A stretch of DNA of 64,000 nt from Bacteroidota bacterium (GTDB lineage: Bacteria > Bacteroidota > Bacteroidia > Flavobacteriales > Flavobacteriaceae), in NCBI GenBank assembly GCA_027620655.1, contig JAQCDS010000005.1, positions 62,001-126,000 on the forward strand, written 5' to 3'. Position 1 is the first letter of the stretch, and each line of letters opens with the position of its first letter. The position numbers were made by a program, and so were the translations under genes. Under the pieces are notes generated by a model. That model was given only the letters and a program-made list of their open reading frames with translations, made no database searches and was not told where the DNA came from. Of the stretch, positions 54,333 through 59,220 are shown piece after piece.

Positions 54333-54405
<73 letters not shown>

Positions 54406-54411
54406 CAACTA

Positions 54412-54445
54412 AACCTTCAACCCTTTTTGAGTTGAAGGTTTTTTT
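54412..54445 (+). terminator. Terminator of the initiator tRNA gene
   Basis: A ten-base perfect stem AACCTTCAAC (54412-54421) / GTTGAAGGTT (54431-54440) with a nine-base loop, then a T run. Confidence 0.88.
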
Positions 54446-54544
54446 GTTTTCAATAATCATTAATATTTTTCTAAAAATCTGAAGTTTTAGTTTTTTTGTT
54501 TTTCATTTAAATAAATTATTATAAATTTACTAAATACATTAATT

Positions 54545-54982
54545 ATGAAGTACTTAGCCTTAATCTTTGGGTTTGTTTCTTTGCTTTCATTTGGCCAAAA
54601 TTGGGAAACTTCCTTTTCCAAAGCTAAAGATTTAGCCAGTCAACAAAACAAACCAATAGTATTAGTATTTCAAGGGTCTGATTGGTGTGCGCCTTGTATC
54701 AAGATGGATCGTGAAATTTGGAGTACAGAAATATTTAAAACTTATGCTTCCAAGCATTACATCATGCTCAAAGCAGATTTTCCAAGGCGAAAGAATAATA
54801 AGCTTTCCGAGAGTCAAACAAAAGCCAATGCAGAACTTGCTGAAAAATATAATAATCAAGGATTTTTTCCTTTTGTTGTGATGTTAGATAAAGAAGGAAA
54901 TGTTTTAGGCCAAAGAGGTTATTCAAAAATAACTCCAAGTCAATTTATAAATGATCTAAATTCTATGACTAATTTAAATTAA
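54545..54982 (+). CDS. Exported thioredoxin-fold protein
   Basis: A 145-residue protein with a signal peptide (1-18, cut after SFGQ) and a thioredoxin domain. The redox site is C48-A-P-C51 in GSDWCAPCIKMDREIW, the form seen in DsbD-gamma/thioredoxin_7-type periplasmic proteins. The cis-proline is in FFPFVVMLD. It should reduce disulfides in the periplasm. It is first in a compact run with the Rieske protein (two-base gap), ApbE, DUF4266 and DUF3570 genes, so it may serve cysteines in those proteins. Confidence 0.9.
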   Translation: MKYLALIFGFVSLLSFGQNWETSFSKAKDLASQQNKPIVLVFQGSDWCAPCIKMDREIWSTEIFKTYASKHYIMLKADFPRRKNNKLSESQTKANAELAEKYNNQGFFPFVVMLDKEGNVLGQRGYSKITPSQFINDLNSMTNLN

Positions 54983-54984
54983 AC

Positions 54985-55404
54985 ATGAAACGAAAAGAAT
55001 TTTTAAAAACACTTGGTGGAGCTGCAGCATTTGCTGTTACCGCTTCCTGTCTTGGTGGCTGTTCTAAAAGTGATGATTCAGTTACTGAAAATCCTGTTGC
55101 TGGATTACCTTTTTCTATAGACTTAACAGATTCCTCATCTAGCCCCCTAGCCACCAACGGGGGATATATAATTGTAAATAACACTGTTGTTGCAAGAGAC
55201 CTTTCTGGAAACTACGTGGCGGCTACTAATTTGTGTAGTCATGAGCAAAAAAGAAAAGTAATTTTTCAAAATAACGAATACTTTTGTACAGAGCATGGGG
55301 CACGCTTTAGTCTTTCTGGGAATGGGTTAAATAGCGACGCAAGTGCTGGTTTGACTATTTTTCAAACAGTCTTGGAGGGTAATATTTTAACGATTAGTGC
55401 ATAG
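54985..55404 (+). CDS. Rieske 2Fe-2S lipoprotein
   Basis: A 139-residue exported lipoprotein. The N-terminus has a basic start (MKRKEF), a hydrophobic stretch and a lipobox LGGC26. The Rieske ligands are C84-S-H86 and C101-T-E-H104, so a 2Fe-2S cluster with two His and two Cys is expected. The fold is short and has no extra domain. It is a free-standing electron carrier at the cell envelope; no bc1 complex genes are nearby. Spacing of 2 bases to the thioredoxin gene and 9 to apbE implies one operon. Confidence 0.9.
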   Translation: MKRKEFLKTLGGAAAFAVTASCLGGCSKSDDSVTENPVAGLPFSIDLTDSSSSPLATNGGYIIVNNTVVARDLSGNYVAATNLCSHEQKRKVIFQNNEYFCTEHGARFSLSGNGLNSDASAGLTIFQTVLEGNILTISA

Positions 55405-55413
55405 TATTTAAAT

Positions 55414-56394
55414 TTGAAAAAAGCATTTTACGCTCTTTTATTACTATTTTCTTTAGCCATAAGTGCTCAGCAACCTTACAAAAAGGTTTTGAAGCTTATG
55501 GGTAGCCGCTTTGAAATCACTGTTGTTGCAAAAGATGACTCAGAAGCAAATCAGTTTATTAACTTAGCCATAAATGAAATCTCTAGGATTGAACAATTGA
55601 TATCATCTTGGGATTCTAAATCTCAGACTTCGGAAATCAATCGGAATGCTGGGTTGAGCGCTGTAAAAGTAGATACTGAACTTTTTCAACTTATCGAGCG
55701 GGCGTTACACATCTCTAAATTGACCGATGGAGCTTTCGATATTAGTTATGCCTCTATGGATAAGGTTTGGGTTTTTGATGGAAGTATGACAGCAATGCCA
55801 TCAGATGAAGAAATTTTAAAATCTGTTGAAAAAATAGGGTATAAAAACATCATTTTGGACCAAAAAAAACAAACTGTTTTTTTGAAACATAAAGGAATGA
55901 AAATAGGTTTTGGTGCTATTGGAAAAGGTTATGCTGCGGACAAAGCAAAGGCGTTATTAATATCCAATGGGGTAGCATCAGGAATCATTAATGCCTCAGG
56001 CGATTTAAATGCATGGGGAAAACAACCTGACGGATCCCCCTGGAAAGTTGCCATAACTAATCCCCTGGATCAAAATAAGATTTTTGCTATGTTACCCATA
56101 AAAAATGGAGCAGTTGTAACCTCTGGTAATTATGAAAAAAGAGTATTGCTTAACGGCAAACAATATTCCCACATTATTGACCCCAGAACAGGGTATCCTT
56201 CTACTGGAATAGTTAGTGTAACCATTTTTGCGCCTAAAGCAGAGGTGGCAGATGCTCTTGCAACTTCAGTGTTTGTAATGGGTAAATCTACAGGTTTGGA
56301 TAGAATTAATCAATTACCCAACATAGAATGCATTATTATTGATGATGATGGAGTAATTTTTAAATCTCAAAATATAGAAATCACAACACAATGA
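55414..56394 (+). CDS. apbE: ApbE-family FAD:protein FMN transferase
   Basis: A 326-residue exported enzyme (signal peptide to about residue 18, ending ISAQ). It would split FAD and attach FMN covalently to a Thr or Ser of a partner protein. The family blocks are MGSRFEITV, the KIGFGAIGKGYAADKA substrate region, ASGDLNAWG, and HIIDPRTGYPS, and the metal-binding ADALATSVFVMG near the C-terminus. The start is TTG. The obvious flavinylation target (a D/E-x-x-[ST]-G-A-[TS] motif) is not apparent in the neighbours. Its stop overlaps the DUF4266 start by four bases. Confidence 0.92.
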   Translation: MKKAFYALLLLFSLAISAQQPYKKVLKLMGSRFEITVVAKDDSEANQFINLAINEISRIEQLISSWDSKSQTSEINRNAGLSAVKVDTELFQLIERALHISKLTDGAFDISYASMDKVWVFDGSMTAMPSDEEILKSVEKIGYKNIILDQKKQTVFLKHKGMKIGFGAIGKGYAADKAKALLISNGVASGIINASGDLNAWGKQPDGSPWKVAITNPLDQNKIFAMLPIKNGAVVTSGNYEKRVLLNGKQYSHIIDPRTGYPSTGIVSVTIFAPKAEVADALATSVFVMGKSTGLDRINQLPNIECIIIDDDGVIFKSQNIEITTQ

Positions 56395-56606
56395 AAAAAA
56401 ACAACATTTTAATTGCATCTGTATTGGCTTTTTCACTGAACAGTTGCGTTGTCGTCAAAGAATATGAAAAAGTAAATATCAATGATCCAGATATGGTACT
56501 TTCTGAAAAAAAATGTGATCGGAATTTGATTACAGCCCATTCTTACCGCGAAGCTGCTGTTGGAGCCAATGGTGGTAAAACAGGCGGAGGTTGTGGGTGC
56601 AATTAA
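56391..56606 (+). CDS. DUF4266 small lipoprotein
   Basis: A 71-residue lipoprotein (lipid cysteine C19, LNSC). After about 25 conserved residues including YEKVNINDPDMVLSEKK it ends in a glycine-rich tail with GGGCGCN, two cysteines separated by one glycine. Function unknown. It is coupled to apbE by a four-base overlap and followed 72 bases later by the DUF3570 gene, a pairing I recall from other genomes. The tail could bind a metal or be a substrate of the neighbouring thioredoxin or ApbE. Confidence 0.85.
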   Translation: MKKNNILIASVLAFSLNSCVVVKEYEKVNINDPDMVLSEKKCDRNLITAHSYREAAVGANGGKTGGGCGCN

Positions 56607-56678
56607 AATCAATTGCATCTGTTGTAATTTAAATATATTATAACATAAAAGTTTAACTAATTAAGACTAAAAAATAAA

Positions 56679-57995
56679 TTGAAACAGATTTTAACATATG
56701 TATTTACCCTAGTATGCATTAGCGTAAATGCACAAATTCAGAAAGATACGATTCAGACCTACAAAAAGCGAGTGTTAGAAACTGTAGAAGTGGATTTTTT
56801 AAGCAGCTACTACACTCAAGAAGGAGATAATGCTTCTGTAAGTGGAGGTATTGGCACAGAGGCACTCACGGATGCGACAGGAACAATTATTGTTGCAATT
56901 CCACTGAATGACGATGATATTTTAACTATCGATGCAGGAGTTTCTGCTTACAGTTCTGCATCTTCAAGTAATGTAGGCCCTTTCGATGGCCAACAAGCTG
57001 CCGATCCTTTTGTGGCAAGCTCTGGTGCATCAAGTTCAGACGTATGGTCTAGTGTTTCAGTTGGGTTTGCTCACAGCTCAGATGATAGAAACAAGTTGTG
57101 GTCTGTCAATACTTCATTTGCTTCAGAATACGATTATTTTTCAGTGGGTTTTGGTGGAAGTTACACAAGATTGTTTAATGAAAAAAACACAGAACTTAGT
57201 TTAAATGTATCGGTATTTTTGGATACTTGGACAGCCATTTATCCTACAGAGTTACGTCCATTTTATGGAGGGAACGGGATTAATAATACTTTATTTGTAA
57301 ACAATGCTGTTACAGGAAATGCCAATTATAATCCACAATTTACGCCATTTAACAATGTGCAAAGAAATTCTTATGCATTTGGAATAAACCTTTCTCAAAT
57401 ATTACACAAAAACATACAAGGGTCTCTTTCTCTTGATCTGGTGCGTCAGGATGGTTTGCTTTCTACACCATTCCAAAGAGTGTATTTTAAAGATATTGCA
57501 GACTCGTTTATTGAAAACTTTCATTTAGCCGATGCTATTGAGCAACTACCAAACGAACGTTTTAAAGTAGCTATTGGAGGTCGCTTGAATTGGTATATAA
57601 ACCAAAACATTACAGTAAGAACATTTTATCGATATTATTTTGACGATTGGGGAATTAATTCTAATACTGTTTCAATTGAACTCCCTTTAAAATTAAGTGA
57701 TAAGTTTACTTTCTATCCTTCTTTTAGATTTTATAACCAATCATCAGCCGATTATTTTAGCCCTTACAATGAAGCTTTATCTACGGATGACTACTACACC
57801 TCAGATTATGATTTATCAAATTATTCTGCAAATCAAATTGGATTTGGTTGCTCTTATACTGATATTTTTACAAAAGCTCATTTGTGGAAGTTCGGCCTTA
57901 AAGCAATTGACCTTAAATTTTATAAATACGACAGAAACACTACATTTGGTTTTAACATCATCACAGCGGGAGTTAAATTTGTTATGGACAACTAA
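56679..57995 (+). CDS. DUF3570 predicted outer-membrane barrel
   Basis: A 438-residue exported protein with a signal peptide (1-18, ISVNAQ) and alternating beta strands throughout, ending in a strand (GVKFVMDN). It looks like an outer-membrane barrel of the DUF3570 family. Segments such as YRYYFDDWGINSNT are family landmarks. Ser/Asp-rich stretches occur early (about 90-125). The start is TTG. It ends the apbE cluster. Function is unknown; a channel or scaffold for the redox lipoproteins is inference. Confidence 0.85.
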   Translation: MKQILTYVFTLVCISVNAQIQKDTIQTYKKRVLETVEVDFLSSYYTQEGDNASVSGGIGTEALTDATGTIIVAIPLNDDDILTIDAGVSAYSSASSSNVGPFDGQQAADPFVASSGASSSDVWSSVSVGFAHSSDDRNKLWSVNTSFASEYDYFSVGFGGSYTRLFNEKNTELSLNVSVFLDTWTAIYPTELRPFYGGNGINNTLFVNNAVTGNANYNPQFTPFNNVQRNSYAFGINLSQILHKNIQGSLSLDLVRQDGLLSTPFQRVYFKDIADSFIENFHLADAIEQLPNERFKVAIGGRLNWYINQNITVRTFYRYYFDDWGINSNTVSIELPLKLSDKFTFYPSFRFYNQSSADYFSPYNEALSTDDYYTSDYDLSNYSANQIGFGCSYTDIFTKAHLWKFGLKAIDLKFYKYDRNTTFGFNIITAGVKFVMDN

Positions 57996-58038
57996 ATCCA
58001 AAAACTTATAGTCATTGCCGTTTTAATTATTTTAGAAT

Positions 58039-58308
58039 ATGTCAAAAAAACTTTTTTATCCTCTTTTTTTGTTATTAATCCCTTTAATAGGGATGACTGT
58101 CTCTGACGAAATTAACTGGAGTCCGTTTGATTTTATTGTAATGGGTTTTCTGCTAATTTTACTTAGTATTGGAATTAATTTTGTTAGAAATCGTTTTAAG
58201 GGTTTAAAAGACCGAGTTCTATATATTGGAATATTAGTTATAATATTTATGCTCATATGGGCAGAGTTGGCAGTAGGTATTTTTGGGACTCCCTTTGCAG
58301 GAAGTTAA
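58039..58308 (+). CDS. Small membrane protein of unknown function
   Basis: An 89-residue protein with three membrane segments (about 5-20, 31-49 and 60-80) and a basic loop (RNRFKGLKDR) between the second and third. I recognise no family. It follows the DUF3570 gene by 43 bases and could belong to the same transcript. Confidence 0.7.
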   Translation: MSKKLFYPLFLLLIPLIGMTVSDEINWSPFDFIVMGFLLILLSIGINFVRNRFKGLKDRVLYIGILVIIFMLIWAELAVGIFGTPFAGS

Positions 58309-58436
58309 GACAACAATTGCTTCAGTTGCGCTATATTCTTACTCATATGGGTAAGGAAAATCAAAATCATATTAATTTAAGTTTTTACAATTAAATTAAA
58401 ACTAAAATATTAATTTTAAAATGCAATTGATTTTGT

Positions 58437-58473: not shown

Positions 58474-59220
58474 ATGAAAAAACTAATTTTTTTATTATTT
58501 GTGTTTGCAGGAGCAAACCTATCGGCTCAAGTCGCAAAATCACGTTATATTAAAGTTGATGAAGACAAAGGTGAACTGGTATACGAAGCCATTAAAGCAA
58601 AAACTCAGAAGTATAACCAATCTGCAGAAAAAGGAGCACATTATACATTCTATATTGAAACCGGTCCTCGAGCAGGACAATTATTTAGAGCTCGTATAGA
58701 ACAAGATATGGCAGGATTTGATGTCGATGGCGATCCAGAAGAATACCAAATGTGGAACGAAACTGTAGCACCTCATGTTACAAACGATTTATTTCAAGTA
58801 TGGTACTACAACAAAAATGTTTCACATGAAATTACAGACCTTTGCAAAAAACCATTACGCCAAGTTTTATTGTATACCATAGACCCTGCAAAAGCCGATG
58901 ATTTTTGGACCTTCCGTAAGCGTGTCTATGATGCTATTGTAAAGTCCGACGCTCAAATCGATATGGGTGTGTGGACTGTTTTTGCTGGAAATCGTGGTTT
59001 GAATGTCTTAGTAGGATTTGCTCACGAAAACCATGCTGAAATGGAATTAGACGGTTCAGAAGAATGGTCTAAAGTGGTTGAAGCTTATAATGAAACACAC
59101 GGTGAAGGACAATTCAAAGCAGACAATGCAAAACTAAGAGAAAGCATGTCTGAATGGGGCAACAGTACGCAGCTTTGGACATTTTTACCAGAGTTAAGTT
59201 CGCCTTGTGTGACACCTTAA
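58474..59220 (+). CDS. Exported protein of unknown function
   Basis: A 248-residue protein with a signal peptide (1-18, NLSAQ). The rest is an acidic alpha-beta protein with a possible duplicated half: an aromatic-rich FRARIEQDMAGFDV part followed by DFWTFRKRVYDAIV and WTVFAGNRGLNVLVGFAHEN. I recognise no family. Cysteines lie at about 122 and 245. It is a single-gene unit with its own terminator. Confidence 0.78.
   Translation: MKKLIFLLFVFAGANLSAQVAKSRYIKVDEDKGELVYEAIKAKTQKYNQSAEKGAHYTFYIETGPRAGQLFRARIEQDMAGFDVDGDPEEYQMWNETVAPHVTNDLFQVWYYNKNVSHEITDLCKKPLRQVLLYTIDPAKADDFWTFRKRVYDAIVKSDAQIDMGVWTVFAGNRGLNVLVGFAHENHAEMELDGSEEWSKVVEAYNETHGEGQFKADNAKLRESMSEWGNSTQLWTFLPELSSPCVTP

Follow-up and report, generated by a model that had tools for sequence, protein, structure and literature searches.

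What is the function of an operon that encodes a thioredoxin-like protein, a Rieske [2Fe-2S] lipoprotein, an ApbE flavin mononucleotide (FMN) transferase and members of the families DUF4266 and DUF3570, and how far across the cell envelope would its electrons travel? The question is raised by a stretch of 64,000 nucleotides from a member of the Flavobacteriaceae (assembly GCA_027620655.1, contig JAQCDS010000005.1, positions 62,001 to 126,000), referred to here as the window, in which these five genes lie on the same (+) strand with spacings of 2, 9, −4 and 72 bases. The open reading frame (ORF) coordinates and the Pfam matches agree on this layout, as given in the initial annotation, and all five N-termini look like signal peptides or lipoboxes when the translations are inspected by eye, with no predictor, in keeping with its view that every product is exported. 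The cluster is a flavobacterial copy of a known flavinylation cluster to which an extra Rieske lipoprotein has been added, and its products may form a redox unit at the outer membrane.

The core of thioredoxin, ApbE, DUF4266 and DUF3570 was reported by Meheust et al. in 2021 (PMC8238504), whose main text describes 316 clusters of ApbE, DUF3570, a PF13899 thioredoxin-like protein and DUF4266 without a linked DsbD, proposes a hybrid thioredoxin/flavin system and points out the CXC motif of DUF4266. The suggestion of an undescribed system, made in the initial annotation, has thus been dropped. In the window ApbE (PF02424) is likewise found beside DUF3570 (PF12094), together with the same PF13899 thioredoxin-like protein and DUF4266 (PF14086). 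Unlike the DsbD-linked subset of the published clusters, the window cluster has no DsbD gene, the one DsbD match of the genome being on another contig. It differs further by the Rieske gene inside the operon, a component already flagged by the initial annotation and left unmentioned in the main text of PMC8238504, where neither ‘rieske’ nor ‘barrel’ occurs (the supplementary tables were outside the search). No other paper naming DUF3570 or DUF4266 was found, supplements again lying outside the search; neither name occurs in the available part of PMC11334425, and literature searches on Rieske proteins with flavinylation, flavinylated outer-membrane barrels and Rieske surface lipoproteins gave nothing relevant beyond PMC8238504. 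Relative to the literature examined, the Rieske variant of the cluster is new.

The initial annotation saw no classical flavinylation motif in any of the proteins and left the target of ApbE open. DUF3570 of the window does, in fact, carry a canonical S115-G-A-S118, along with S92-S-A-S95. The main text of PMC8238504 reports that the DUF3570 protein of C. luteolum is flavinylated by its ApbE, and that modification stopped only when the serines of both [ST]GA[ST] motifs had been changed. Among 121 aligned DUF3570 proteins (the window first, two of 122 ORFs dropped by length and the C. luteolum protein not among the rows), the site-2 columns hold a strict [ST]GA[ST] in 91. At site 1 the strict form occurs in only 9/121 and [ST]SAS in 107/121, the window having SSAS, while A94 and S95 are invariant throughout. 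All nine rows of a distant group, f17, read SGAS or TGAS at site 1; this group may be linked to Chlorobium. Genomes of the f17 group (for example those of L164 and L180) have several DUF3570 genes, with up to nine matches, some of which are pieces of one gene, and their loci contain DUF4266 and often ApbE, with no thioredoxin in the stretches examined.

ApbE matches twice in the genome. The second gene belongs to an nqr-like operon (G000:C16:82922-90424, L193; nqr gene names from a reading of the ORFs only), which also contains the single FMN_bind match of the genome. Since the other ApbE belongs to that operon and the DUF3570 sites are kept, DUF3570 is likely to be the substrate of the window ApbE, an assignment well supported by homology and demonstrated in the homologue only. 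The converse idea, that the sole target of ApbE is an FMN-binding protein from another locus, is unlikely and was discarded, as the FMN_bind operon contains its own ApbE. DUF4266, put forward by the initial annotation as a possible flavin substrate, was also set aside: no [ST]GA[ST] is seen on inspection of the window copy, the conserved feature of which is a C-terminal CxC. NqrC and NqrB are established ApbE substrates, and DUF3570 has the [ST]GA[ST]-type acceptor motif in common with these and other substrates; it differs in being modelled as an outer-membrane barrel, whereas the others are soluble or inner-membrane domains.

Within the family the two DUF proteins are tightly associated. Of 249 family genomes, 97 have a match to DUF3570 and the same 97 have one to DUF4266, a co-occurrence above chance; 96 of the DUF3570 matches exceed the curated cut-off. 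The surroundings of the gene were compared in 121 loci chosen for DUF3570, in stretches mostly of about 15 kb. From the family genomes 94 of 99 DUF3570 places were taken (the remainder being the window itself and four fragmentary or weak matches, two in G344 and one each in G309 and G414), and 26 further loci from outside that set were picked by choice rather than at random. DUF4266 is found in the same stretch in 118, ApbE in 114, thioredoxin in 99 and Rieske in 24. By content, 74 loci have thioredoxin, ApbE, DUF4266 and DUF3570 without Rieske, 24 have the set with Rieske, 15 lack both thioredoxin and Rieske, and eight are of other kinds. The linkage is not absolute, the DUF3570 and DUF4266 genes of one genome (G461) being some 41 kb apart.

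An AlphaFold2 (AF2) model of DUF3570 based on 121 sequences has a mean predicted local distance difference test (pLDDT) score of 93.6 and 16 long strands, if 343-345/348-354 are counted as one. Foldseek and VIA-align both list outer-membrane barrels as relatives of the model, including the BamA model 9a2o (Z 21.3, 3.6 Å over 278 residues) and the polysaccharide secretin 4y25 (Z 21.2, 3.1 Å over 253 residues), and the proposal that the envelope redox system reaches the outer membrane through a DUF3570 barrel is borne out at the level of these models. Both flavin sites are placed by the model in one loop (94-121) that joins strands 3 and 4, with S95 two residues past strand 3 and S118 four ahead of strand 4; mean pLDDT is 83 at residues 91-100 and 85 at 101-110. 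Judging by the list of strands, the side that holds both termini has mostly short turns, and the opposite side has long conserved loops. Were the termini in the periplasm, as they are in barrels of this kind, the flavin loop would face outward. Modification ahead of barrel assembly would be chemically possible, because recombinant DUF3570, recovered mostly in the pellet of lysed cells and purified in denatured form, was still flavinylated (PMC8238504).

The two lipoproteins appear to be sorted to opposite faces of this membrane. In C. canimorsus the optimal lipoprotein export signal is C-X-K-(D/E)2-X, and SDDFE is the signal predicted for F. johnsoniae (PMC5080379). At least two acidic residues at positions +2 to +7 after the lipidated cysteine are present in 93/104 Rieske proteins and 0/119 DUF4266 proteins, and the strict X-K-(D/E)2 form in 40/104 and 0/119, respectively; among 87 other ORFs of the same loci that are lipoprotein-like by a loose pattern, the strict form is absent (0/87). 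Because of this difference between acidic and non-acidic tails, the Rieske protein is probably located on the cell surface, and DUF4266 is predicted to face the periplasm. The Rieske protein may also be exported by the Tat system, towards which its R-K-x-F-L start, resembling a Tat signal, and the presence of TatC in the genome point weakly.

DUF4266 ends in GGGCGCN, as the initial annotation had observed; a C-terminal CGC followed by no more than two residues is found in 119/119 of the family, and 115 end in GCGCN. The closest NCBIfam model of the thioredoxin is DsbH, below its cut-off (95.8 bits against 190), and its best solved relative is 2ju5 (1.1e-19). The thioredoxin has a CxxC in 98/121 DUF3570 loci. 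In L078, L110, L111 and L118 a protein of 652-665 residues with a thioredoxin-like part is encoded 25-57 bases after DUF3570, and the only one scanned, that of L110, gives a DsbD match below the cut-off.

The Rieske lipoprotein matches PF00355 at 1.4e-5 (25.3 bits against a gathering cut-off of 20.3), and retains the ligands C84-x-H86 and C101-x-x-H104; no other Rieske match was found in the genome. The Rieske subunits of cytochrome bc1 and b6f contain disulphide-forming cysteines beside the ligand pairs. By contrast, no extra cysteine lies between the ligand pairs in the window protein or in any of the 103 motif-bearing proteins among 104 Rieske rows (100 distinct sequences), and no cytochrome b gene is present among the operon genes, to which that search was confined. 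The structural model (pLDDT 81.9) retrieves Rieske ferredoxins and the Rieske domains of oxygenases at similar E-values. The fold, as modelled, and the CxH/CxxH ligands are those of PetC3 and the Rieske-type ferredoxins of ring-hydroxylating dioxygenases, from which the window protein differs in being a lipoprotein with no oxygenase in its operon. The ligands are kept in 23/24 of the operon-linked proteins; that of L175 (4266-4763) has lost the CxxH cysteine.

The Rieske gene comes first in 23/24 Rieske-bearing loci, and the order thioredoxin, Rieske, ApbE occurs in the window alone. In a quick tree of ApbE and DUF3570 covering 98 of 101 loci (L061-L160 plus the window, where both genes are present; L161-L180 were left out), with support given only by the Shimodaira–Hasegawa-like approximate likelihood ratio test (SH-aLRT), the window falls within a set of 31 loci with a support of 99, the other 30 of which have no Rieske gene. 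The Rieske label requires five changes on this tree, each of them imposed by starred branches, and shuffled labels require 20.2 on average; Rieske was counted only within the stretch, and gain cannot be told from loss by the counts. Given the unique gene order and the 30 Rieske-less companions, the Rieske gene probably joined the window operon separately, which is the simplest account; on the tree, Rieske has apparently joined the operon more than once.

Rieske genes are also encountered away from the core. A scan with Rieske as the query, of which the best 80 of 113 relatives were kept, gave 45 full operons (one of them, L229, in Cellulophaga fucicola), 25 Rieske-ApbE pairs, seven Rieske genes alone and three partial loci; the search pattern was the N-terminus of the operon Rieske proteins, and the 45/80 is not an unbiased share. 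Two of the seven lone genes (L262 and L271) are truncated by contig ends, as are the partial loci L196 and L266, while L233 lacks DUF4266 and DUF3570 within 12.4 kb. The two-gene cassettes (L200, L202, L205-L208, L212, L223, L224, L226, L228 and others, 25 loci in all) adjoin purM-like and prfA-like genes, and in one pair, L203, the ApbE frame is broken. Nineteen of the 25 pair genomes have DUF3570 elsewhere and six gave no match; of five genomes with a lone Rieske gene that were tested, two have DUF3570. In three of the pair genomes (G564/L071, G554/L077 and G550/L100) the DUF3570 found elsewhere occupies the contig position of a Rieske-less locus, which suggests that the Rieske protein may act in trans, whilst in a fourth (G557/L147) the distant operon has its own Rieske gene.

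How might these components work together? The reading favoured here, tentatively and with a likelihood that falls somewhat short of even, is of a flavin-based redox unit at the outer membrane in which electrons pass from thiols to flavins, with the Rieske protein outside as a one-electron relay. ApbE would attach FMN to S95 and S118 of DUF3570 before or during barrel assembly, and DUF3570 would sit in the outer membrane with both flavins in one loop at the outward rim of the barrel. DsbD, encoded elsewhere, would recharge the thioredoxin, which in turn would hold the periplasm-facing DUF4266 in the reduced state at its CGC thiols, and DUF4266 would pass its electrons to the FMNs of DUF3570. 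The Rieske protein, probably surface-located, would then exchange electrons one at a time with a partner outside the cell, which could be a metal ion. The computations themselves show site conservation, gene linkage, a confident barrel model and signs of a separate arrival of the Rieske gene; electron transfer from thiols to flavins, the outward placement of the flavins and the Rieske protein, the direction of flow and the acceptor are inferred.

Haem proteins are the usual explanation for how electrons leave across the outer membrane, and porin-cytochrome conduits such as MtrCAB and Cyc2 move electrons at an outer-membrane barrel. The proposed unit resembles them in this respect and differs in its centres, which would be flavin, thiol and Rieske, with no CXXCH haem motif seen on inspection of the five translations. 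A flavin barrel and a thiol lipoprotein found in 97/249 family genomes, joined in some by Rieske, would add a haem-free electron route, and would make the function of DUF3570 directly testable via its outside partner. An unlikely elaboration is that of a true conduit, in which the glycine-rich CGC tail of DUF4266 enters the barrel from the periplasmic side as a thiol ‘piston’ and feeds the two covalent FMNs at its outer rim, from which the surface Rieske protein relays electrons outwards. If so, DUF4266 and DUF3570 would form an obligate pair of plug and barrel.

Several observations count against the redox unit as drawn. The loop that bears site 2 is modelled with a mean pLDDT of only 64 at residues 111-120, and site 1 is S-S-A-S rather than strict [ST]GA[ST], a variant for which no test was found in the literature. 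The window Rieske start, C-S-K-S-D-D-S, is near the optimal export signal and not at it, and acidic tails are also present in 39/87 of the other lipoprotein-like ORFs. The sequence profile of the Rieske protein ranks the b6f-type 5cxm first, making a ferredoxin-like role less than certain. Thioredoxin is missing from 22/121 DUF3570 loci and Rieske from 97/121, where the core manages without it. Conversely, 25/80 Rieske loci are pairs without thioredoxin, DUF4266 or DUF3570, and the six genomes with no DUF3570 match, in which the paired ApbE would need another substrate, oppose a strict Rieske-DUF3570 link and favour one between Rieske and ApbE.

It is possible, though rather unlikely, that the operon handles metals, with DUF3570 as a metal-selective porin whose flavins reduce iron or copper, DUF4266 binding metal through its CGC, and the thioredoxin or Rieske protein supplying electrons, alongside transporters for heavy-metal efflux or iron storage. 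RND permeases lie 0.8-4 kb from the operon in 15/121 loci and RND adaptors in 16; the one permease scanned (L081) belongs to the CusA/CzcA family (871 bits against a cut-off of 701). A single adaptor was scanned as well; it exceeds the cut-off of the RND adaptor model, and CzcB is its next match. VIT-like proteins, named by reading, occur in 6/121 loci, one of which, when scanned, gave a weak TIGR00267 match, and 25 DUF3570 clusters are reported to contain VIT1 (PMC8238504). Such neighbours are a lead towards metals and no proof, however: 106/121 loci lack such a permease, the window included, neighbours are not independent events, and the counts carry no chance rate. Distinctly less probable is a periplasmic thiol-reducing system, in which thioredoxin and DUF4266 protect envelope proteins while the flavins and Rieske drain or sense electrons. 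The DsbH-like character of the thioredoxin and the four loci with a thioredoxin-part protein after DUF3570 are in its favour, but it leaves unexplained why an outer-membrane barrel should be flavinylated and keep both sites, and 15/121 loci have ApbE, DUF4266 and DUF3570 without thioredoxin.

The remaining alternative concerns the Rieske protein by itself, which might be a passenger linked to the core by shared synteny and descent without a common pathway. A purM-like gene lies upstream in 17/24 Rieske-bearing operons, 18 of the 22 Rieske-bearing loci on the tree form one clade, and that site is also where the Rieske-ApbE pairs are located, 6/25 of them in genomes with no DUF3570 match. Against this stand the five forced changes on the tree and the window itself, where the Rieske gene is inside the operon, in another position and away from the purM-like site, and a mere passenger is on balance improbable. 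The neighbouring purM-like (TIGR00878, below cut-off), prfA and pyrF genes, the last two named by reading only, were considered as parts of the system and rejected, as they look like shared synteny.

The operon is rare in its own genus, DUF3570 being found in 1/11 genomes (1/6 among the more complete), that of the window. When G339, a genome of the same genus without the operon, is compared by blastn (against L190), synteny ends at the last base of a tRNA-Met, position 54406, and resumes from 58407, some 120 kb away on the same contig. The intervening 4-kb segment (54407-58406), which holds the operon and an 89-residue membrane-like protein, has no match in G339, and was either gained in the window genome or lost in G339. 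No clear foreign composition signature extends across the operon. A second copy of the 3′ end of tRNA-Met, as an integration repeat would leave, was sought and rejected, the sole match being the tRNA itself, and in a megablast search against plasmids no record covered 80% of the query, with the 20 listed of 144 records matching the tRNA region only. The coordinates are collected in Table 1.

Table 1. Features of the operon and its immediate surroundings, in window positions.
Feature	Position	Strand	Evidence
tRNA-Met (CAT), upstream of operon	54333..54406	+	ARAGORN
Thioredoxin-like protein, periplasmic (Thioredoxin_7, CAPC)	54545..54982	+	Pfam Thioredoxin_7, 2.3e-15
Rieske [2Fe-2S] lipoprotein, CxH...CxxH, lipobox-like LGGC, tail SKSDDS	54985..55404	+	Pfam Rieske
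ApbE FAD:protein FMN transferase, exported, TTG start	55414..56394	+	Pfam ApbE, 1.4e-85
DUF4266 small lipoprotein, C-terminal GGGCGCN	56391..56606	+	Pfam DUF4266, 2.2e-17
DUF3570, modelled 16-strand outer-membrane barrel, TTG start	56679..57995	+	Pfam DUF3570, 5.5e-40
Putative flavinylation site 1, S92-S-A-S95 of DUF3570	56952..56963	+	coordinates from codons 92-95
Putative flavinylation site 2, S115-G-A-S118 of DUF3570	57021..57032	+	coordinates from codons 115-118
89-aa membrane-like protein, no family above cut-off	58039..58308	+	within segment without G339 match

The stretch examined around the window operon contains no RND permease and no VIT-like gene. Elsewhere, the loci with an RND permease are L073, L077, L078, L081, L094, L105, L106, L110, L111, L154, L156-L158, L172 and L175. 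Downstream of the segment, in the flank that is common with G339, positions 58474-59220 encode an exported-looking protein of 248 residues with no Pfam match.

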